A stretch of DNA of 34,138 nucleotides, taken from a virus. The translations under genes and the position numbers were made by a program. The number at the start of each line of letters is the position of its first letter. The first letter of the stretch is position 1. Below the pieces are notes generated by a model. The model searched no databases. It had not been told where the DNA came from and saw nothing but the letters and a program-made list of their open reading frames with translations. Where the stretch lies: the IMG/VR virus record IMGVR_UViG_3300043434_001024, positions 1 through 34,138 of that record; one strand, written 5' to 3'. Of the stretch, positions 1,091-34,138 are shown piece after piece.

Positions 1091-1369
1091 ATGGACATTC
1101 GATTCTTTCGCTCCGCACCAGACGCTCCGGTCGCATGGCCGCAGCAGGAAGCCTCCTCACCCGACAAGACAGTGGCATTGGTCCCGCTGGAGCGGCACAA
1201 CGACCCCGATGCCATAAACCGCCTCGGTTTCGACTTCTACGGAGCCTATGGCGATGGCGAGCACATCGATCAGTGGGCTGAGAACCAGCCACTGGAAGCG
1301 ATTGATCGTGATGAGCTGCCTGCCCAGCTCACGTGGTTCCCTGCACCCTTTATCAACCCCGAGGCCTGA
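1091..1369 (+). CDS. Small hypothetical protein between fibre and DGR target (92 aa)
   Basis: An acidic protein of 92 residues starts two bases after the fibre stop and ends three bases before the DGR target start, so it sits in one transcription unit with both. It is rich in Asp, Glu, Pro and Trp, has no signal peptide or membrane segment, and shows no motif I recognise. Its place between fibre and variable adhesin makes a fibre chaperone or attachment adaptor a reasonable guess, but that rests on context only. Confidence 0.7.
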   Translation: MDIRFFRSAPDAPVAWPQQEASSPDKTVALVPLERHNDPDAINRLGFDFYGAYGDGEHIDQWAENQPLEAIDRDELPAQLTWFPAPFINPEA

Positions 1370-1372
1370 CCC

Positions 1373-2905
1373 ATGACCAGCACCATCACTCCTCTGCTCC
1401 GGGTCAAGGAGCGAATCGTTGGCCCCAGTGGCCTCTTCAATATCCAGAACGAGTGGTACGGCTACGCCGACGAGTTCAAGTACACGATTGGCCTGGCCGG
1501 CTTGCAGGGCTTTGGGGTGGGCTGCTGCCCGCCGGAGCTTTTGCCGGCCGACATGGCGCCCCTGCCTGGCACGGAGGATCGTTTCAGCTCGAACTACGGC
1601 AACTACATTCACCTGCCGTCCGCATCGATTCAGTGCTTCATTCCCGCGCACTTCATCGACATCCAGGCTCCTGGGAACACCAATGCGCCGGACTTCGGCA
1701 CGAAAGTGGTGATCAGCGCCGGCAAGACCGGCAACATGGTGCTGGCCCGGCCGTTCACCGATGGCGGCGCTGGCGTGGTTGGAATCTTCATCGACAAGTA
1801 CCAGGGCAGCAACTGCCTGCCCGATGGCTCGGGCGCCCCGAACCACACCAACGGACCAGGCGGCACCCCCCTGACCGGCGGGATCTTTGCCAGCAGGCCT
1901 CTTCAATGGCCCGTATCAGCCATCGCGCAAAGCGGCACTGCCCACAGCCCATTCAGCCTCTGCAACAGCACTGCGCTGAACTCGGCGGCCACCACTCCCG
2001 CCAACAACCTCGGCGGCGCCTGGGCCCTGTGCCGCACCCGTGGTGCGGACTTTCACCCCTGCCCGATCTGGCTTTACACCCAGATCGGTTACTTGTCGCT
2101 GGCTCATGCCCAGGCACTACTCGATGGTTCTGGCAACCCGATCACCGGCTCCACCTCTCGGGCAGCCTGGATGGATGTGAGCCCCTATGCCCCCAAGGGG
2201 AACAACAACACAGGGGCGGACGTAAACAAAAGCTCCCTGCAATTCAGCCGTACCGATCTCACCGGTCACGCCTCCGGCTGGGCCGGCACAACGGGCCGGG
2301 CCTTTACCGGTGCTGCGCGGATCAGTGGGGTGCCGGCTGTGGAGCACACCACCCACAACGGCCAGCTCTCTGGGATTGTGGACGTCAACGGCAACCAGGT
2401 CACGATCACGCCTGGCCTCACGTCGGTCATCACCGGCATGAGCGCTGCTGGATACCGGTTGCTCCCGGCCTCCGTGGCCTGGGGCTCCATCAGCAGCAAC
2501 AACGACATCCGCAATGCAGTTGATGTCATCTCACTGGCCGCTCAATCGGTGGCTGCGGCGGATGATGGCATCTGGCACACAAACGTCAATGCTTGGACCT
2601 ACCTGCAGGCCCACAGCGGTGGCACGTTCCACCCAACCAGCACCTGGGGTGCCAATGCCACCCGCAAGGCAATGGCGGAATGTGGTATTCCAAGAGAACT
2701 CGGCACCAACAACACCACGTCCGGTCTGAACATCTTCGGGGGTGACGGTTTCTATCGATCGTTGACTGCCGATTGTGTGCCGGACTCCGGTGGCAGCTGG
2801 CGCGACCCCGCGAGCAGCGGGGTGTTCTCCCGCTACTTCGGCGGCCCGCCATCGTTCGCGGACAACGTCTGTGGCGCGCGGGCCGTCCGCCTTCTGGCCG
2901 CATGA
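1373..2905 (+). CDS. DGR target (variable) protein, putative phage adhesin with C-type-lectin-like C-terminus
   Basis: The gene encodes 510 residues. Its last ~43 codons contain the variable repeat (bases 2774-2894, residues about 468-508) matched by the template repeat at 3363-3483. The C-terminus ends in SGGSW, SSGVFSRYF and CGARAVRL, the layout typical of DGR variable proteins with a C-type-lectin/formylglycine-generating-enzyme fold, where variable residues form the ligand surface and the invariant GARAVRL strand holds the core. Compared with the template-encoded residues, Asn, Thr and Tyr codons have become Ser, Arg, Asp, Pro, Tyr, Gly, Phe, Ala, Val and Cys. The N-terminal ~380 residues match no domain I can name. 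The gene follows a tail fibre, so it is probably displayed on the virion, possibly at the fibre tip. Its stop overlaps an ATG (bases 2902-2904). Confidence 0.92.
   Translation: MTSTITPLLRVKERIVGPSGLFNIQNEWYGYADEFKYTIGLAGLQGFGVGCCPPELLPADMAPLPGTEDRFSSNYGNYIHLPSASIQCFIPAHFIDIQAPGNTNAPDFGTKVVISAGKTGNMVLARPFTDGGAGVVGIFIDKYQGSNCLPDGSGAPNHTNGPGGTPLTGGIFASRPLQWPVSAIAQSGTAHSPFSLCNSTALNSAATTPANNLGGAWALCRTRGADFHPCPIWLYTQIGYLSLAHAQALLDGSGNPITGSTSRAAWMDVSPYAPKGNNNTGADVNKSSLQFSRTDLTGHASGWAGTTGRAFTGAARISGVPAVEHTTHNGQLSGIVDVNGNQVTITPGLTSVITGMSAAGYRLLPASVAWGSISSNNDIRNAVDVISLAAQSVAAADDGIWHTNVNAWTYLQAHSGGTFHPTSTWGANATRKAMAECGIPRELGTNNTTSGLNIFGGDGFYRSLTADCVPDSGGSWRDPASSGVFSRYFGGPPSFADNVCGARAVRLLAA
2774..2894 (+). 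repeat. DGR variable repeat (VR)
   Basis: Aligns without gaps to 3363-3483 at an offset of 589 bases. In the 117-bp core (2778-2894) there are 22 mismatches: 2783, 2796, 2801, 2802, 2804, 2807, 2814, 2829, 2834, 2840, 2841, 2843, 2844, 2846, 2855, 2856, 2858, 2861, 2867, 2868, 2871 and 2890. All correspond to A in the template: 13 became G, 5 became C and 4 became T. The only non-A mismatch (2777, G versus T) is at the 5' fringe. Confidence 0.97.
2872..2894 (+). other. Candidate IMH (initiation of mutagenic homing) sequence at the VR 3' end
   Basis: The 3' end of VR is a GC-rich block (2872-2889) identical in TR (3461-3478). It is followed by one A-to-C difference and then divergence from 2895 onward. 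In the Bordetella phage DGR such a GC block and adjacent IMH mark where target-primed cDNA synthesis starts and polarity is set. The assignment here is by position and composition. Confidence 0.7.
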
Positions 2906-2916
2906 GCGGCCATGCT

Positions 2917-2936
2917 GGGCCGGCGGCAGCCGGCCC
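2917..2936 (+). other. GC-rich hairpin/cruciform just downstream of VR
   Basis: A perfect 8-bp inverted repeat, GGGCCGGC and GCCGGCCC, is separated by the 4-base loop GGCA. It starts 22 bases after the end of VR homology. Well-studied DGRs carry a stem of 7-10 bp with a 4-base loop at this place, which promotes target recognition. It lies in the gap before the preferred avd start, so it may be kept free for this structural role. Confidence 0.75.
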
Positions 2937-2994
2937 TCTCCTGCCTGATGATCTTGGTGCCTCCCACGGGGCCACACCAGCTGCGGAGGCCGTC

Positions 2995-3360
2995 ATGGGC
3001 CTCGATCGGCGCAAAGAGCGCTACTGGCTCATCGAACGCCGGTGTAAAGACCTCTGCCTCTACCTGGATGTCCTCACCAGGAACATGCCCAGGTACGAGA
3101 AATATGTGCTCAGCGCCAAGATGCGAGAGATTGGCTACCTCTGCCTTGAGCTGGCCATTGCCGCCAACAAGAAGCAGCACAAAAAAACCGATCTCACACG
3201 GTTCAACGTGCAGCATGAGTTCCTGCGCCAGCTGCTCAACCTCGCCGTTGAAGCCCAGCACATCGAACCGCGCCGCCACCGGATCGCATGCGAGAAGCTG
3301 GACGAAGTGGGCAAGCTCCTCGGCGGCTGGCTACGCTCAGAACTCAGGGCGGACTCCTGA
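2995..3360 (+). CDS. avd: Avd-like DGR accessory protein
   Basis: A basic, mostly helical protein of 121 residues, close to the ~120-130 residues of DGR accessory proteins. It opens with RRKERYWLIERRCKDLCLYL and continues through long Arg/Lys/Leu-rich helices, consistent with the four-helix bundle that forms a positively charged pentameric barrel, binds the reverse transcriptase and RNA, and is needed for mutagenic homing. I chose ATG 2995 because GGAGG stands five bases upstream and because the family similarity starts there. An in-frame ATG at 2902 overlaps the target stop (ATGA) and would add 31 low-complexity Gly/Ala/Pro residues across the VR hairpin. The template repeat starts two bases after the stop, giving the order target, avd, TR, RT. 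Confidence 0.88.
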   Translation: MGLDRRKERYWLIERRCKDLCLYLDVLTRNMPRYEKYVLSAKMREIGYLCLELAIAANKKQHKKTDLTRFNVQHEFLRQLLNLAVEAQHIEPRRHRIACEKLDEVGKLLGGWLRSELRADS

Positions 3361-3362
3361 AA

Positions 3363-3483
3363 TGTTTGCCGAACTCCGGTGGCAACTGGAACAACACCGC
3401 GAACAGCGGGGTGTTCTACCGCAACTTCAACAACACGCCATCGAACACGAACAACAACTATGGCGCGCGGGCCGTCCGACTTC
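3363..3483 (+). repeat. DGR template repeat (TR)
   Basis: The invariant partner of VR (2774-2894). Its core contains 32 adenines, mostly in in-frame AAC codons. AAC and TAC/TAT codons cannot become stop codons by changes at adenine alone, so the template allows wide amino-acid sampling without truncation. Translated in the VR frame it reads SGGNWNN, SGVFYRNFNN, NNNYGARAVRL, an Asn-rich version of the target C-terminus. It lies between avd and RT and does not appear to be translated itself. Confidence 0.96.
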
Positions 3484-3617
3484 GACACAATCACGCCCTG
3501 CGTCGGTCCTCACGGGGACCGGCCGTGCCGTGTTGAAGGGAGGGAGTTCGTCCTTGAGCCTTCGGGCTCTCAATAGCCGGGACGGGCGATTCCAGTAGCG
3601 TCAGCGACCGTCTCGCC
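3363..3617 (+). ncRNA. Probable DGR template RNA: TR plus structured spacer to the RT gene
   Basis: The 134 bases between TR and the RT start contain no convincing gene but can fold. A 6-bp stem pairs 3504-3509 with 3516-3521, and a 5-bp stem with a UUCG loop pairs 3556-3560 with 3565-3569. In the Bordetella DGR the spacer 3' of TR is structured and needed for cDNA priming with RT and Avd. The RNA ends given here are approximate; the 5' end probably lies inside avd and the 3' end may run into RT. Confidence 0.55.
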
Positions 3618-4631
3618 ATGCCCCACAAGATCGGCAATCTCTGGCCACAGATCGCCGACTACGACGCTCTGCGTGACGCCTGGCGCGAGGTGCGCAGCGG
3701 CAAGGGACACAAGGCGGTGGTGCTTCGCTACGAGAGCAACCTGGCCGTCAACCTCTCGCGCCTTGAGGCCCGCCTGCAGGACGGAAGCTATCGGCCGCGG
3801 GAGCACTACGAGTTCTGGGTCAAGGATCCAAAGCCGCGCCTCATCCAGGCCCCGTACCTGGAGGACCGGATCGTGCAGCACGCCGTCTGCAACGCCCTGC
3901 GCGTCCCGCTGCAGCAGCGCATGATCGCCCACACCTACAGCTGCCTGATCGGTCGCGGAACCCATGCCTGCTCTCGCCAGTTGCAGCGCTATCTCAAGAA
4001 CCGTCGCTGGCGTTACTACCTGAGCCTGGACCTTAGCAAGTTCTTCTATTCGATCAACCACGACAGCCTGTATGCCGAGCTGCAGCGGCACATCAAGTGC
4101 CCGCCCACGCTGGAGCTCCTCTGGCGATTCATCACCATCAACGGCACCGGCCGGGGCATCCCAATCGGGGCAAGCACCAGCCAGATCATGGCGAACATGG
4201 CTCTCAACCCCCTCGATCATTTTGCCCGCCGCGACCTCAAGCTCAGCACCTACCTGCGCTACTGCGACGACATGGTGGCGCTGTTCGAGACAGCTGCCGA
4301 TGCCCATGCCGCCCTGGCGGCGATCCGCAGCAAGGTGGCCAGGCTGGGCCTGCAGCTCAACAGCAAGAGCGGCGTCGGCTGGGTGGACGACGGAATCGAC
4401 TGGGTTGGTTACCGGCACTGGGCCGCCTACAAGCTGATCCGCAAACGTGCACTGAAACGCCTCAAGCGCCGCGCCAAGGGCGGCTGCAGGGTCGAGACCA
4501 CCATGAGTTACCTGTCCCATGCCAAGGAGACTGCCAGCCTCCGCCGAGTGGCCAGCATTCTCTGGACTCAAAACCGTAGGCAACGGCCTGAGATCAGGCT
4601 CTGGCTACGGCATCACCAGCCGCAGCGGTGA
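3618..4631 (+). CDS. DGR reverse transcriptase
   Basis: The enzyme (337 residues) copies the template RNA into adenine-mutated cDNA that replaces the variable repeat. The N-terminus (KIGNLWPQI) and length fit DGR reverse transcriptases. Visible motifs include LIQAPYLEDRIVQHAV near residues 74-89, catalytic Asp138 in LDLSKFFYSI, IGASTSQ at 183-189 (the DGR-type I/L-G-x-x-x-S-Q in place of the QGxxxSP of group II intron and retroviral enzymes) and catalytic YCDD at 215-218. The C-terminus is short and basic, without maturase or endonuclease domains, as expected for this class. All catalytic residues are present, so it should be active. ATG 3618 has no strong Shine-Dalgarno site; no better upstream start is seen. 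Confidence 0.95.
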   Translation: MPHKIGNLWPQIADYDALRDAWREVRSGKGHKAVVLRYESNLAVNLSRLEARLQDGSYRPREHYEFWVKDPKPRLIQAPYLEDRIVQHAVCNALRVPLQQRMIAHTYSCLIGRGTHACSRQLQRYLKNRRWRYYLSLDLSKFFYSINHDSLYAELQRHIKCPPTLELLWRFITINGTGRGIPIGASTSQIMANMALNPLDHFARRDLKLSTYLRYCDDMVALFETAADAHAALAAIRSKVARLGLQLNSKSGVGWVDDGIDWVGYRHWAAYKLIRKRALKRLKRRAKGGCRVETTMSYLSHAKETASLRRVASILWTQNRRQRPEIRLWLRHHQPQR

Positions 4632-4675
4632 AGAAATAGCACAGGCCCATACTGGCCTCAGAGCGCAATGACCCT

Positions 4676-4945
4676 GTGGACCGACGAGCCGAGATGGTGC
4701 AGCTGGCCACCGAGCTGCTGAGCGAGCAAATCAGGCCGGTGCGAATCCTGTCGATCTCCGACCAGGGCGGCGAGCCCCAGGGAGAGTTCGTGTCGAACCA
4801 GCAACGCTTCGTGTTCAAGTTCACCAAAAGCGGCATGGTCACTTACCGGCCCAAGGGCACGGGCCAGAGCGACCGTGGCGACAGCTGTGTTGATGGCCTG
4901 CAGGCCCGCCTCGACCGAGTGAAAACCCTGCTGGGGGCAGCGTGA
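4676..4945 (+). CDS. Small hypothetical protein after the RT gene (89 aa)
   Basis: The frame starts at GTG 4676 and could instead start at ATG 4694; an ATG at 4668 is in another frame. The product is a small mixed alpha/beta-looking protein with a Lys/Phe-rich centre (RFVFKFTKSG) and no recognised domain. Its stop overlaps the next ATG by one base (TGATG), so it is translationally coupled to the following gene rather than clearly to the reverse transcriptase 44 bases upstream. A DGR accessory role or a small virion protein are both possible; nothing in the sequence decides. Confidence 0.65.
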   Translation: MDRRAEMVQLATELLSEQIRPVRILSISDQGGEPQGEFVSNQQRFVFKFTKSGMVTYRPKGTGQSDRGDSCVDGLQARLDRVKTLLGAA

Positions 4946-5355
4946 TGAGCTGGCTGTCGCCCCTGTTGAATCTGGTGGTGGATCGGTTGATTGATCGGCT
5001 TGCCACGAAACTGGCCGAAAAGATCGACATTGAGCTGGAGGCGGCGGTTGACGCTGCTCTCGATCAAACCGAGATGAGGATTCGAGAGCTGCTCAACGGT
5101 GCCGAGGCCCGCCTGCAGGCGGCGGTTGGTCTGGGGCAGGGCGCTGCGCGCAGCGTTGTTGGGTTGGCCGGCCAGAAGTTGGAAGAGGCAGCGCAGGCCG
5201 CCGGCATGGTGCCGGTTTCAGCCGTGCAGAAAGCCTCCAAGGATGCGGCCACGGATGCTGTGGCCGTAGCAGCAAAGGAGATCCGGACCACGCTGCGCCG
5301 CCAGGCCAAAGCTGCTGGCCTGAGCCCTCTTTTCCGAGAGGTTCCTGATCGATGA
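4945..5355 (+). CDS. Helical hypothetical protein (136 aa)
   Basis: Starts at ATG 4945, overlapping the previous stop, and ends with an ATGA overlap with the 1327-residue gene, so the three form a translationally coupled chain. The protein is Ala/Leu/Glu/Arg-rich with heptad-like amphipathic helices: an N-terminal LLNLVVDRLIDRLATKLAEK helix, then a long Ala-rich stretch. It lacks a signal peptide and is too charged to be a true membrane protein. Possible roles are a scaffold-like or packaged virion-interior protein; context only. Confidence 0.7.
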   Translation: MSWLSPLLNLVVDRLIDRLATKLAEKIDIELEAAVDAALDQTEMRIRELLNGAEARLQAAVGLGQGAARSVVGLAGQKLEEAAQAAGMVPVSAVQKASKDAATDAVAVAAKEIRTTLRRQAKAAGLSPLFREVPDR

Positions 5356-8300
5356 GCCGTTACCAGGCCCTGCAGGATCGGCTCACCGCCATCGAAGCCC
5401 AGCTGGCGCTTTGTCCCGGTCCCAAGCCCCGTTGCCGTCCCACGCGCCGCCATGACGCGGCCGATCCGGTGTCGCCGGTGCTGCAGGCCCTGCTGGCGGA
5501 GGTGCTGCCCGGCGCGCAGCTGCTCGACTGGCGGCAGGATGGCGTCGGCCATGCCGGGCGGATGGCAGCCGATGGGCTTGTCTACCGCTTCCGGGTGGAT
5601 GGTGATGGCGTGGGCTACCGGCCCGCTTGGGAGGGGGTGCAGCAGAGGGGCTGGGAGCTGCGCTCCGATTCGTTCCTCGAGCTCCGCGCTCCGGCCGCCC
5701 GGATGGACTTTCGCCAGGGCAGCGGGGCCACTGCGGGGCAGAAACGCAAATGCTCCACCGGCTACAGCTGCGGCGCGGCCTGCATCTCCCTGCAGAAGGA
5801 ATGCCGGATCAGCCCCTCCAGCGCCATGGGCAAGGCCCGCCTGCGGCGACTGCAGCAGCTGGCGGCCGGGGGCGACAAGGCCGCCGAGGCCACTGCTTCG
5901 CAGGTGTCGGCCGCTCGGGATGTGGCTGCGGGAGAACGGCAGAAGGAGCGCACCACCAAGCGGGTGGAGAAGCTGCTGGCCCGGCCCGAGATCGCCGAGT
6001 ACCTGCGCACCGGCAAGCTGCCCGAGGCCGCCAGCGCTTCAACGGAGCCCGGCACCGTCCGCAACATGAAGCCCGATGAGATCGCTTTCGATCCATCCAG
6101 GTTTCAGTACAAGATCAACGCGACCGCTGGCACCGGCGATGTGGGCAGCCTTTCGGGCGTGCGCAAGTGGGACCCCAACCTCGCCGGCGTAATGAGCGTC
6201 TGGAAGGATCCCGCCGACGGCAAGGTCTACGTGGTGAACGGCCACAACCGTTTGAACCTGGCCAACCGCCTTGGTGCCGAAGAGGTGACCGTGCGGTTTC
6301 TCAACGCAAAGACTGCCACTGAGGCCAGGGCGATCGGCGCCATGCAAAACATCGCCCAAGGCGCCGGCACCCCGATGGATGCTGCCAAGTTCTTCCGCGA
6401 CACCGGCATCAGATCCCAGGCGGACGTGGAGGCCAGGGGCCTTCCCTTGCGCAGCGGCCAGGCGGAGAAGGGCCTCAAGCTCAGCAAGCTACCCGACGAA
6501 GTGTTCAGCGCAGTAGTGCGCGGTGATCTGAGCGTGAATCGCGGCGCGATCATCGGCGGCAGCGGCCTCGATGAGGCGAAGCAGCGGGAGGTGTTCAAGA
6601 TGGTTAAGGCCCGCAAGGGCATCGCCGATCAGACCCTGCTCGAGCTAGTGGAGCATGCCGCTGCCAGTGAGCAACGCACCCAGACCACGATGGACCTCTT
6701 CGGAATGAGCCAGGAGGCCACGGACAACCTGTTCACCCGGGCCAAGCTGGCCGCTGGCCTGAAGGCCAAGATCAGCAGGGAGAAGCGCCTGTTCGGCACC
6801 GTCTCTAAGGCCAGGGCCGCCTCCACCCTTGCCGAGAAGGCTGGCAACGTGATCAACCAGGAGCAGAGCGCCAGGGTGGCCGGCGAGGCCAGCGAGGCCC
6901 TGTCGGTCTTCGAGCGTCTGAAGAGCTCCAGCGGGCCGATCAGCTCCGCCCTCAACCGTGCTGCCGATCGGGTGGAGGCCGGCGAATCCGAGGCGAAGGT
7001 GCGGCAGGAGCTGGAGCGGGATGTGTTTGCCGCGGTGGAGCAGGAGCTGGTGACACTGGGCCTGCGCAAGCGGCCACGGGCCGACAGCCTGCAGCAGCGG
7101 ATCGACGCCCTCAAGCGGAAGTGCGCAACGGGCTACGGATGCGGGGCAACGTGCATCAGCCTGCAGAAGGAGTGCCGCACCACCCCGGGCAGTGCGATCG
7201 GCAAGGAGCGGCTCAAGCGCCTTATGGAGCTGGCGGCCGGAGGCAGCTCCAACCAGCGGGGCATCGGCACCATGAAGGCCAGCGAGGCCGGCGAGATGGC
7301 CCAGGGCATCACCGCCAGCCGGGCCCAGCGGGCAGCAGAGCTGCGGGGTGTGCGCCGGCCGATGCTCACCAACCCAGGCCGCCAGGCCCCAGGCCCTGCC
7401 CGCAAGCCGGCACAGCCCGGCCTCAACGCCCAGGACGTGACCACCAGCAGCCAGCAGGCCGCCTTTGCCAGGCAGCAGCAGCAGGCCGCCAAGGCCGCCG
7501 GGGATCAGGAGGGCGCCCAGGCCTGGCGCAAGGAGGAGCGCACGGTGGAGCGCAACCGACTGGCCAACGCCCTCGCCACCACCAAACAGAGCCAGAGCTC
7601 GCTGTTCGGCGTCACCGAATACGACCAGACCATGCCGCTGTTCCAGCAGCCTGCTGCTGCCGCCGGGCCGCAGCAGGCACCGAAGATCAGCGACGTGCTA
7701 CGCGCGACCACCGAGCAGCTGAAAGCCGCCGACGCCCGCCAGATGGGCAAGATCGCCGAGAACCTCTTCGAGGCCGGCTGGTCGATTGATCGCCGCACCC
7801 GCTACCGGGGCATGAGCAAAGACCAGGCGCGCGAGCAGTTCAAGGTGGAGTTCATGCAGAAGATGCAACAGCAGGCTGCCTCACCCGAAGCTGCCGCCAA
7901 CTCCGCTGCCATGCGCCAACGTGCCGGGGCCTCCGGCAGCGTCGCCGGCGCCATGAAGAGCATCCTCGAGGACATGAAGGCTCAGGACCAGCGGCTGGAG
8001 GACCTGCAGCGCCAATCCATCGATCTGCGCATCCAGGCGGAGGAGCAGTTTGGCGCCCAGGGCGGCGCGGATCCAACCCTGGGTGGTGGCCGGCCGCGGC
8101 GGCGCCTTGGCGGCAGCAAACGTCGACGTGATGCGGCTGATGACCGATTCGATGATGCGATCGATCGTCTGACAGTGCTGCGTGCTCGCATGGATCAGCG
8201 CTGCAGGCGACCCGATGGCAGCCATTACGGCACCAGCGGCGACTGCCGCCAGGGAATCCGGGCCGGCGTCGCGCGCGGCGTTGGACAAGGTTTCAGACGG

Positions 8301-9335
8301 CTGGGACGGCGGTTGCTGGGCCGTGGTGAGAAGGCATCAGAGGGAGATGTGATGGCCTCCGCTGCCCGCATTCAACAGCTGGCGGCCGCTCGCAAACAAG
8401 AAGAAAGCGATAGGCAGGCCAAAGAGAAGGCGCGCGAAGAGGAGATCCTCAGCCGCGGACCCCAGAAATGGGGCGTGAAGCAAGTGGAAAAGGAGGAGGT
8501 TCCAGGCGCCGGTGGCAAGGGCATCGTCTGGCACGAATCCCGATACGAGGTGCAGCTTGAGAAACCTCTCCGCCTGTCGGCACGACCCGGAAAGGAGCCC
8601 CGTCTGGTTGACAAGCTCTCATTCCAGGTCGCAATGGATGAGGCCAACGCCAAACCCATAGCCAGAAAGCTGGGAGAGCAGGGCATCGCTCTGAACAACA
8701 GGCAGGTCAACAATGCTCTGGAGTTGGCCTGGCTGACCGGCGTCGGTGGTGGCGAGGCCTTCATGGGTGCGGATCGGATTGCCCTGCCAAAGGACGTGGC
8801 CCAACGGTTTGCCAAGGAGGTCTCAAAGCAGGTGAAGGCTGTGATATCGAATCTGGAGGAGGGCCAGATCGTGATCTGCAAGGCCCATCAGGACGATGGC
8901 TATGGGGACAAACGCCAATCGCTCTACAAGAGGGCAGGATTCACCTTCATCGGTGGCACTGGGATTGCTGTGGTTCGCAACGGCAAGCTCAGCCGCATCG
9001 AAGGTGCCCGCGGCGATCGCCACGATGCAGGCGATGAGATCGATCTGGAAGGCCTGCTCTTTGCTCTCCTGACTCTCGGCAGCAGCGAGCGCCGCGATGC
9101 CGCTGCCGACATCCTGGATGCCCGAATCGACGCCCTCAAGCGGAAGTGCGCAACGGGCTACGGCTGCGGCAGCACCTGTATCAGCCTGCAGAAGGAGTGT
9201 CGCATCAGGCCCGGATCGGCGATCGCCAAGGAGCGGCTCAAGCGGCTCATGCAGCTGGCGGCCGGCGGCGCCCTGATCTACCGGCTGCTGACGGTGCACG
9301 GACCTGCTAACCACCCCATCCCCCTGGCCCGATGA
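5352..9335 (+). CDS. Giant multidomain 'polyvalent-like' protein with ddrB-type ParB domain and repeated Cys modules
   Basis: A protein of 1327 residues. A four-Cys module (C-x-TGY-x-CG-x-x-CISLQKECR) occurs at about residues 130-175, 591-640 and 1266-1310, each followed by a basic helix ending in LAAGG. Residues about 239-420 contain VNGHNRLNLANRLG (GHNR at 297-300) and NIAQGAGTPMDAAKFFRD, which fit the ddrB-ParB domain known from phage polyvalent proteins, large composites packaged in virions and injected to protect incoming DNA. Residues ~660-790 are Gln/Ala-rich linker. A different two-Cys motif (RCRRPDGSHYGTSGDCR) lies near 950. Residues ~1040-1217 form a separate globular domain ending in SLYKRAGF, faintly like GNAT acetyltransferases. 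The gene lies just before the head genes, supporting a role inside the capsid. Enzymatic activity is not shown. An internal scaffold or MuF-like role is an alternative. Confidence 0.8.
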   Translation: MSRYQALQDRLTAIEAQLALCPGPKPRCRPTRRHDAADPVSPVLQALLAEVLPGAQLLDWRQDGVGHAGRMAADGLVYRFRVDGDGVGYRPAWEGVQQRGWELRSDSFLELRAPAARMDFRQGSGATAGQKRKCSTGYSCGAACISLQKECRISPSSAMGKARLRRLQQLAAGGDKAAEATASQVSAARDVAAGERQKERTTKRVEKLLARPEIAEYLRTGKLPEAASASTEPGTVRNMKPDEIAFDPSRFQYKINATAGTGDVGSLSGVRKWDPNLAGVMSVWKDPADGKVYVVNGHNRLNLANRLGAEEVTVRFLNAKTATEARAIGAMQNIAQGAGTPMDAAKFFRDTGIRSQADVEARGLPLRSGQAEKGLKLSKLPDEVFSAVVRGDLSVNRGAIIGGSGLDEAKQREVFKMVKARKGIADQTLLELVEHAAASEQRTQTTMDLFGMSQEATDNLFTRAKLAAGLKAKISREKRLFGTVSKARAASTLAEKAGNVINQEQSARVAGEASEALSVFERLKSSSGPISSALNRAADRVEAGESEAKVRQELERDVFAAVEQELVTLGLRKRPRADSLQQRIDALKRKCATGYGCGATCISLQKECRTTPGSAIGKERLKRLMELAAGGSSNQRGIGTMKASEAGEMAQGITASRAQRAAELRGVRRPMLTNPGRQAPGPARKPAQPGLNAQDVTTSSQQAAFARQQQQAAKAAGDQEGAQAWRKEERTVERNRLANALATTKQSQSSLFGVTEYDQTMPLFQQPAAAAGPQQAPKISDVLRATTEQLKAADARQMGKIAENLFEAGWSIDRRTRYRGMSKDQAREQFKVEFMQKMQQQAASPEAAANSAAMRQRAGASGSVAGAMKSILEDMKAQDQRLEDLQRQSIDLRIQAEEQFGAQGGADPTLGGGRPRRRLGGSKRRRDAADDRFDDAIDRLTVLRARMDQRCRRPDGSHYGTSGDCRQGIRAGVARGVGQGFRRLGRRLLGRGEKASEGDVMASAARIQQLAAARKQEESDRQAKEKAREEEILSRGPQKWGVKQVEKEEVPGAGGKGIVWHESRYEVQLEKPLRLSARPGKEPRLVDKLSFQVAMDEANAKPIARKLGEQGIALNNRQVNNALELAWLTGVGGGEAFMGADRIALPKDVAQRFAKEVSKQVKAVISNLEEGQIVICKAHQDDGYGDKRQSLYKRAGFTFIGGTGIAVVRNGKLSRIEGARGDRHDAGDEIDLEGLLFALLTLGSSERRDAAADILDARIDALKRKCATGYGCGSTCISLQKECRIRPGSAIAKERLKRLMQLAAGGALIYRLLTVHGPANHPIPLAR
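5739..5868 (+). repeat. Cys module copy 1
   Basis: Encodes KRKCSTGYSCGAACISLQ and KECR, then the helix ending LAAGG. This is the most diverged of four copies at DNA level. The four cysteines have zinc-binding-like spacing (C-x6-C-x3-C-x6-C), but no experimental family is known to me. Confidence 0.85.
7080..7330 (+). repeat. Cys module copy 2 (long form)
   Basis: Gapless match to 16038-16288 at an offset of 8958 bases. It covers the preceding ADSLQQRIDALKRKC helix, the four-Cys motif, the LAAGG helix and a QRGIGTMKASEAGEMA extension. The conserved length (about 250 bp) indicates a duplication between the large gene and the island gene. Confidence 0.9.
9108..9268 (+). repeat. Cys module copy 3
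   Basis: C-terminal copy in the large protein. It shares an uninterrupted DNA stretch with copy 2 from the ATCGACGCCCTCAAG helix through the first cysteines, and encodes CATGYGCGSTCISLQKECR followed by the LAAGG helix. The protein ends soon after, so this module is a C-terminal cap. Confidence 0.88.
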
Positions 9336-16028: not shown

Positions 16029-16796
16029 ATGAACCGAGCCGACAGCCTGCAGCTGCGGATCGATGCCCTCAAGCGGAAGTGCTCCACTGGCTATGGGTGC
16101 GGGGCAACGTGCATCAGCCTGCAAAAGGAGTGCAGGAGCAGTCCCGGATCGGCGATCGGGAAAGAGCGCCTGAAGCGCCTCATGGCCCTGGCCGCAGGGG
16201 GCCCCTCCAGCCAGCGGGGCATCGGCACGCTCAAGGCCAGGGAGGCTGGGGAAATGGCCGGGGCTATCGCAGCAAGGCGCAGCCAGAAAGCGGTTAGTTT
16301 GCGGAGCACCAGAGTTCGCACAGAATCTCCCGTGCCAGGCGTTTATAGGCTCACCGCCAATGATAAAAAGAAAATCAGGATCCGTACCGAAGAAGAATAT
16401 GCCAAGGAGCTTGCCGCGTTTGATGTCAACAAAACACGCTTGGGCAAGAGCTTTGGCCTCAAAAAACGTGACTACGCTTCCAGGCTCCTCCGTTCAACAG
16501 AACCCTATTTATTAGGCAAGGGGCAAGGTGCACTTGATCTCGCCATGGGCAAGCCGTATGCAGGCCAAACAGCAGCCCAGCCGAGCTTCCAGAACGCCTA
16601 CAAACTGGGTTATTACACTGGCTACACAGAGCGAAGCAACCTAAAAGACCTCATCCAGCACAATGAAAACTTTGCGGCATTCCGCAAAACAACGGAACTC
16701 GACAAGAAACCACCCACACAGAGATTCTATGACCCAGGCGAAGACCCAAGCATGAGGGAGGCAATAGAAGACTTTAACGCAATCCTGAGAGGCTAA
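16029..16796 (+). CDS. Island protein: Cys module fused to unknown C-terminal domain (255 aa)
   Basis: Residues 1-90 copy the second Cys module of the 1327-residue protein (four Cys, LAAGG helix, QRGIGTLKAREAGEMA). From about residue 95 the sequence is unrelated and the DNA turns clearly AT-richer. The C-terminal domain is Lys/Tyr-rich with LGKSFGLKKRDYASRLLRS, AYKLGYYTGYTERSNL and DPSMREAIEDFNAILRG; I know no family for it. AAGGAG lies about seven bases before ATG 16029. Shared head, different tail is the pattern of modular effectors in which the common module may direct packaging or delivery. This is inference. The gene starts just after the tail-tube terminator, so it may have its own promoter. 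Confidence 0.8.
   Translation: MNRADSLQLRIDALKRKCSTGYGCGATCISLQKECRSSPGSAIGKERLKRLMALAAGGPSSQRGIGTLKAREAGEMAGAIAARRSQKAVSLRSTRVRTESPVPGVYRLTANDKKKIRIRTEEEYAKELAAFDVNKTRLGKSFGLKKRDYASRLLRSTEPYLLGKGQGALDLAMGKPYAGQTAAQPSFQNAYKLGYYTGYTERSNLKDLIQHNENFAAFRKTTELDKKPPTQRFYDPGEDPSMREAIEDFNAILRG
16038..16288 (+). repeat. Cys module copy 4
   Basis: Gapless partner of 7080-7330 (offset 8958). Conservation stops near 16290, exactly where base composition changes, marking a fusion joint. Confidence 0.9.
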
Positions 16797-33070: not shown

Positions 33071-34138
33071 ATGGCTCGGATCAGCATCGCGAACGCCCTG
33101 GCCGGCATCCGCAACGCCGTGGGTGCTGGTGGCCAGCTGCGGGCAAAGGACCAGCTCTCGGCGGTGGTGGATGCTCTGCTGCAGCTGGTGGGCAACGCCA
33201 ACATCGCCCCGGGCAACACCGAGCCGGCCGATCCGCTCAACAGCCCCTTCACGATCTACGTCAACCCCTACATCGGCACTGACCAGTTCGTGGGTGGGTC
33301 CTACAACTGGTTTGAGGAGCCGGCCGGCGCCAGCGATGCCGCCAAGATCCAGGCCAAGCTCAGGCGCCTGGAAAATCAGCGCCTCACCTGCGGCTACAGC
33401 AAGCAACGCCCGTTCCGCACCATCAACCGGGTGGCGATTGAGATCATCCTCGCCACCAGCAAGAGCTACTTCACCCTCAATTCAGAAGACGCCCAGGTTG
33501 ATTGCCCAGCAGTGGAGTTCAGCCCGGGCACCCATATCTTCTACAACGATCCTGGCAACAGCCCCAGCGCCATTCCGATCACCGAATGGCCGGCCGAGGG
33601 CTTTGAGCCCACACCGCAGCACCTGATCGGTTTCAACCCCAACAGCGGCGGGGTTGTGCTCCCCCGCTACGCCACCGCCAGCGCACCGCTCAGCCTCAGG
33701 CAGTGCACGGTGAGGCCCTCCTGGGTGCCGGCCGCGGCAGACGAGGCAGCCGACTACAGCAACCGCTCGGCCATCCTCAAGATCACCAACACCAGCTACG
33801 TCTACGGCCTCACATTCCGTGACCAGCTGGGCGCCAGCTCCAGCCACCACCTCCTCGATTGCGTTCAGGCCGCCAGCCAGGCGGACCTGGATCAGCTCTA
33901 CGCAAAGGTGCGCACCGCCATGGGCGGGGCCAGCAACAGCGGCAACATCTCCAACGCCCTGGCCGTCACCAGGCTGTCGGAATACGAGATTGTGGGCCCG
34001 TTCGGCGCCAACCCATCGGAAGCGTCCGACACCGTGAAGGGCGCCAGCCCTTATGTCTACAACTGCACGAAGAGAACGGAGTGGGGCCTGGGAGGGGTGC
34101 ACTGGAACGGCGCACGCCTGGCCGGTCTCAAATCCATC
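33071..34138 (+). CDS. Virion structural/fibre protein, 3' end outside window
   Basis: Open from ATG 33071 to the end of the window (356 codons, no stop). The N-terminus is a short helix (IANALAGIRNAVGAGGQLRA). It then has TIYVNPYIGTDQFVGGSYN, RRLENQRLTCGYSKQRPFRT and INRVAIEIILATSKSYF, which resemble virion proteins of marine cyanophages; this is recalled similarity and was not searched. The C-terminal part visible here looks like a beta-helix-type fibre (SYVYGLTFRDQLGASSSHHL). The likely role is a tail fibre or adhesin. GCGGAAG just upstream is a weak ribosome site. Confidence 0.82.
   Translation, partial: MARISIANALAGIRNAVGAGGQLRAKDQLSAVVDALLQLVGNANIAPGNTEPADPLNSPFTIYVNPYIGTDQFVGGSYNWFEEPAGASDAAKIQAKLRRLENQRLTCGYSKQRPFRTINRVAIEIILATSKSYFTLNSEDAQVDCPAVEFSPGTHIFYNDPGNSPSAIPITEWPAEGFEPTPQHLIGFNPNSGGVVLPRYATASAPLSLRQCTVRPSWVPAAADEAADYSNRSAILKITNTSYVYGLTFRDQLGASSSHHLLDCVQAASQADLDQLYAKVRTAMGGASNSGNISNALAVTRLSEYEIVGPFGANPSEASDTVKGASPYVYNCTKRTEWGLGGVHWNGARLAGLKSI

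Follow-up and report, generated by a model that had tools for sequence, protein, structure and literature searches.

A BPP-1-type DGR with adenine-only divergence of its variable repeat in an IMG/VR phage genome

The IMG/VR virus record IMGVR_UViG_3300043434_001024 carries, in the 34,138 nt analysed here (the window), two closely similar repeats. The question is whether they are the variable and template repeats of a complete DGR, which protein this DGR would rewrite and whether it is still in use. The variable repeat (VR, 2778-2894, plus strand) and the template repeat (TR, 3367-3483, plus strand) are 117 bp each, at an offset of exactly 589. They differ at 22 of the 117 positions, and every mismatch is located at an adenine of the TR (13 A>G, 5 A>C and 4 A>T). 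The TR contains 32 adenines, 22 of which are changed in the VR and 10 unchanged, and none of the 85 other positions differs. The chance that 22 randomly placed mismatches would all fall on these 32 adenines is 1.9e-16. The preliminary description had reported the same offset, the 22 adenine-only mismatches and the invariance of the other base classes, and on recounting all of this proved exact for the 117-bp core. Its start of the repeat at 2774 could be retained only in part: the core runs from 2778, and the four extra bases bring in a mismatch at a non-adenine position (T>G at 2777), which was considered as a repeat position and then excluded from the core. No second VR for this TR was found within the window.

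At 2890 the TR reads CCGACTTC and the VR CCGCCTTC. The corresponding A>C is seen in every related DGR in which the repeat end could be aligned, distant ones included. Because of this constancy, it is counted as the difference between IMH and IMH*, which is most likely fixed and not a product of diversification. With 2890 set apart, 21 of 31 TR adenines are diversified, so that the 22 sites first described stand as mismatches and 21 of them as diversified sites. The putative IMH region (2873-2894, plus strand) consists of the GC-rich GGCGCGCGGGCCG followed by TCCGCCTTC. This GC-rich 3' end is shared by the VR and the TR and conserved in the relatives, and a role in priming is assigned to it by analogy with BPP-1 (PMC3240598). 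Read in the frame of the target, the TR has 20 adenine-containing codons (12 of them AAC), and from none of the 20 can a stop codon be obtained.

The same restriction to adenines is found across the family. In 14 pooled loci, 270 of 438 TR adenines were changed, compared to 1 of 1183 other positions. The relatives L012, L017 and L048 share one TR, and their VRs differ from each other at 16-23 sites, all at adenines and none elsewhere. It is logically possible that an ordinary duplication, followed by some other adenine-specific mutagen or by selection on asparagine codons, gave rise to such repeats without any reverse transcription, and nothing further was found in favour of this explanation. 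It would have to account for a single non-adenine change among 1183 positions, right beside the RT, the Avd and the GRNA hairpin of a DGR. In addition, from lineage to lineage the non-adenine positions of the VR follow those of the TR, the pattern expected from repeated copying. The probability of a duplication with another mutagen is consequently regarded as negligible.

The reverse transcriptase (RT) gene is located at 3618-4631 (plus strand, 337 amino acids). It matches PF00078 and phrog_1423 (E 5e-101), carries the IGASTSQ and YCDD motifs, and has the BPP-1 bRT (8ub7, E 4.6e-50) as its best match in the PDB. The avd gene (2902-3360, plus strand) probably encodes 152 amino acids, with an N-terminal extension of 31 residues followed by a conserved core from 2995. 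It matches NF033474 with 84.4 bits (cut-off 80), while PF22296 (80.9 bits, cut-off 40) and phrog_3206 match its core. Both the intact RT and the Avd-like gene of the preliminary description are thus confirmed. The Avd core protein (2995-3360) is ~96% identical in relatives whose RT is ~76% identical, with a difference of ~15-18% in the avd DNA; by this comparison the conservation of the core appears unusually strong. The spacer between the TR and the RT gene (3484-3617, plus strand) displays a conserved RNA structure and would be the counterpart of the DGR spacer RNA. The structure comprises 38 pairs with 95% of the cells paired, and 15 pairs are changed on both sides. This covariation lies far above that of slid controls, a comparison that is favoured by the derivation of the structure from the same sequences. 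Rfam gave no match at gathering scores.

Two hairpins follow the VR. The first, HP1 (TGGCCGC-ATGA-GCGGCCA, 2895-2912, plus strand), has a 7-bp stem, also obtained by DNA folding, that begins at the first base after the VR. In its RTGA loop the TGA stop codon of the target overlaps an ATG or GTG, and in the window this ATG (2902) is the probable start of avd. In 16 of 18 loci the RTG of the loop shares the frame of avd, to which it is linked by extensions of differing length. The search for an in-frame ATG, GTG or TTG ahead of the Avd core yielded this codon alone in the window, L020, L048 and L003. The window has a further ATG at 2995, the first residue of the core; a start at this codon was set aside, as L020, L048 and L003 have no ATG, GTG or TTG at that place. 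A start at 2902 would put the second hairpin, HP2 (GGGCCGGC-GGCA-GCCGGCCC, 2917-2936, plus strand), within the first codons of avd.

In an alignment of 18 sequences (17 distinct, window included), HP1 and HP2 are always present and 99.6% of the cells are paired. Two pairs of HP1 and three of HP2 have changes in both partners, five in total, which amounts to few independent events because the relatives share ancestry. Phage DGRs are known to possess a hairpin with a GRNA loop and a stem of 7-10 bp, 4-34 bp after the VR (PMC3240598, Guo et al.). HP2 follows this rule with its 8-bp stem, GGCA loop, spacing of 22 nt and covarying pairs, and is the putative target-recognition hairpin of the DGR. 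For HP1 no such precedent was encountered: in BPP-1 and in the other examined DGRs with a clear VR/TR pair, the first 70 bases were scanned for ungapped stems, and no hairpin abutting the VR was found. Nothing on a second hairpin after the VR was found in the open-access literature, a limit that makes this a weak negative. The L018-type relatives (L018, L093 and L107) have a single hairpin only. The presence of a stop and a start codon in the loop of a tandem hairpin suggests a link between the expression of target and Avd. However, L059 and L060 keep HP1 although their avd is out of frame with the HP1 codon, so translational coupling alone is insufficient as an explanation. HP1 might be a second functional element in this clade: it could make Avd translation dependent on translation of the target, or serve retrohoming as an additional recognition hairpin; this proposal is tentative, plausible but short of probable.

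The VR lies at the C-terminal end of the target gene (1373-2905, plus strand), an ORF for a variable protein of 510 amino acids. Its only family matches are phrog_20912 and phrog_2889, both of unknown function, and no Pfam or NCBIfam family was matched. A profile of residues 326-510, built from the 185 C-terminal residues and 30 relatives, matches TaqVP (5VF4) with an E of 5.5e-7, and the alignment covers 174 profile positions including the VR. TaqVP is a DGR variable protein with the C-type-lectin fold (PMC6328139), and the match points to a C-type-lectin-like domain, possibly of the FGE subtype, at the C-terminus of the target. AlphaFold2 models of the full target (16 sequences, pLDDT 31.8) and of the C-terminal domain (31 sequences, pLDDT 44.5) were unusable, so the assignment of the fold rests on the profile match. 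With only phrogs of unknown function to go by, the VR gene could also be taken for a structural protein without receptor role, whose diversification serves, for example, particle binding or immune evasion. The similarity of the C-terminal domain to a lectin-type DGR protein argues against this, as does the location of the target beside a collagen-like tail fibre gene, a place where phages with the same backbone have adhesin-like proteins. A role of this kind is considered quite unlikely. The earlier designation of the target as a phage adhesin is supported by its structural neighbourhood and by the TaqVP match, and the protein putatively binds a receptor. A small gene of unknown function (1091-1369, plus strand) travels with the target gene: many relatives have it (34-66% identity), likewise ahead of the target.

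Other structural genes in the window encode a collagen-like fibre, a portal-like protein, a protease, the major capsid protein and a tail fibre. The closest major capsid protein from a cultured phage is that of Synechococcus phage S-CBS4 (47%), which makes a cyanobacterial host likely. A collagen-like Gly-X-Y repeat (1-360) is encoded by the fibre gene that precedes the target. A coding module of 130-170 nt with matches to phrog_33618 and a Cys-containing motif, STGYSCGAACISLQKECR, recurs at 5742-5874, 7080-7244, 9105-9273 and ~16038-16259, that is, inside the portal-like ORF (5352-9335) and close to the beginning of the ORF at 16029-16796. ARAGORN predicts a tRNA-Ser (gct) at 33588-33682 on the minus strand, antisense in a tail-fibre-like ORF (33071-34138), which is possibly spurious.

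The target, the VR, Avd, the TR, an intact RT, the GRNA hairpin and the structured spacer are thus all present, as the preliminary description of a complete DGR had held. It is very probable that the locus is a complete phage DGR of the BPP-1 type that rewrites the VR of the target in the following way. The RT-Avd complex would copy the TR RNA and the structured spacer into cDNA, thereby misincorporating opposite adenines. The IMH, close to the 3' end of the VR, would then be the site at which the cDNA is joined, a step presumably aided by the GRNA hairpin just beyond. In the last step, the cDNA would take the place of the VR and so rewrite the C-type-lectin-like C-terminal domain of the tail-tip attachment protein. 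The varied AAC codons and other adenine-containing codons would alter the surface of this domain and thereby probably which receptor it binds.

Evidence for use of the system in nature comes from the relatives. L020 and L086 are the nearest relatives of the window's target, and the contigs concerned (L020/L137 and L086/L139) carry different metagenome numbers. Their alignment of 10,645 bp contains 14 mismatches. A base-by-base comparison of L020 and L086 over 5.3 kb places all 14 in the VR at TR adenines, and the other 5195 bases are identical. Similarly, L129 and L132 show no difference in 6530 positions outside the VR and 13 within it, all at adenines. Natural variants that differ in the VR only have been reported in another phage (PMC6199706), and here they are consistent with RT-dependent retrohoming. 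Adenine-only rewriting of the VR occurs naturally in the nearest relative, which supports that the clade is active in nature. The lineage of the window itself includes one other genome (L002/L069), which differs by 3 SNPs in ~22.6 kb (79 to 22707) and has the same VR; a search of IMG/VR with patterns carrying N at the template adenines found no further copies beyond the contig of L002. As the VR is identical in this only sister genome, activity of the window's own copy can only be inferred. The claim of an active and recently diversified system accordingly holds for the clade, by its contig pairs that differ only at VR adenines, and for the window's copy in this weaker form.

An identical VR in two near-identical genomes would also be seen if the DGR had been silenced, its parts remaining after a recent loss of retrohoming in the window's copy and the divergence reflecting past activity. 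Relatives have indeed repeatedly lost the DGR but kept the target, one of them by an in-frame avd-RT deletion. In the window, however, the RT, avd, the TR, both hairpins and the spacer are intact, and no non-adenine difference between VR and TR has accumulated. The unchanged VR is equally explained by selection for one VR or by two samples of a recent clone. Silencing is held to be unlikely, and the window's copy is probably competent.

Losses of the DGR can be followed on the target tree. Eleven target homologues have neither a nearby VR/TR pair nor an intact RT. A match to the RT is absent anywhere in 12 of 13 records searched, an absence that is weak for short records, which are possibly fragments. 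The presence of the DGR changes at least six times on the tree, at least four of them on well-supported branches. The tree gives no direction; loss in some lineages is established because deletion remnants exist. An in-frame junction in L089 (3619-3931) connects the beginning of the Avd core with the C-terminus of the RT; it resembles a deletion remnant, as if most of avd, the TR and most of the RT had been removed at once. Sequence comparison thus indicates repeated losses of the DGR in relatives that retained the target. A different observation was made in L051 (5544-6225), where the target resembles that of L009, the TR resembles that of the L012 lineage, and VR and TR show 10 non-adenine mismatches. 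L051 is likely a natural recombinant whose template has ceased to fit its target.

The target and the DGR also appear to have moved as a unit. In phages with capsids 86-96% identical to that of the window, the target, Avd and RT are unmatched in the stretches covered, and the DGR-bearing sister L069 is matched in the same search. On inspection, DNA similarity to the same-backbone phages resumes at 4642-4676, directly past the RT stop, and those without a DGR carry other proteins of adhesin-like make-up upstream, in the same place. Conversely, the contig stretches of the DGR relatives lack the portal and capsid genes of the window. Target and DGR would accordingly form a tip cassette that is exchangeable between phage backbones. 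A DNA-level search for relatives of the cassette among cultured phages found none beyond a 77-bp match.

Over 30,000 DGRs with broad activity have been reported (PMC8144416). The DGR of the window has a textbook layout and is of an already-known type, with HP1 as its one unusual detail. It is a further well-supported DGR, here in a phage whose major capsid protein has its closest counterpart among cultured phages in a Synechococcus phage. Moreover, VR-only pairs, graded DGR losses with the target kept and a backbone-exchanged cassette occur in one adhesin family, within which it can be traced how targeted hypermutation is gained, used and lost.

With the DGR of Bordetella phage BPP-1 (mtd-avd-TR-brt), the window shares the order target-avd-TR-RT, the C-terminal VR, the adenine-only divergence, the GRNA hairpin after the VR and the TR-RT spacer, and the RTs are 37% identical. 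In contrast, a sequence search with the target did not retrieve Mtd, and the VR of the window is directly followed by a further hairpin. The probable start of avd and the target stop overlap in ATGA here, while mtd and avd of BPP-1 are ~30 nt apart. TaqVP from the Thermus aquaticus prophage (5VF4) is remotely similar over the 174 profile positions of the C-terminal domain including the VR; the target of the window is extended at its N-terminus by ~325 residues, and its fold is suggested by this profile match. The DGR of the Bacteroides hankyphage (PMC6199706) likewise has 117-bp repeats, adenine-only changes, a target with a C-terminal C-type lectin and natural VR-only variants, but belongs to another host and phage type, and the window's element is known from metagenome contigs only. 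Closest are the IMG/VR relatives L020/L137 and L086/L139, with the same layout and hairpins and with ~89% identity in the target and ~85% in the RT; their TR differs at 8 of 117 positions, and their VR has been caught in two natural states.
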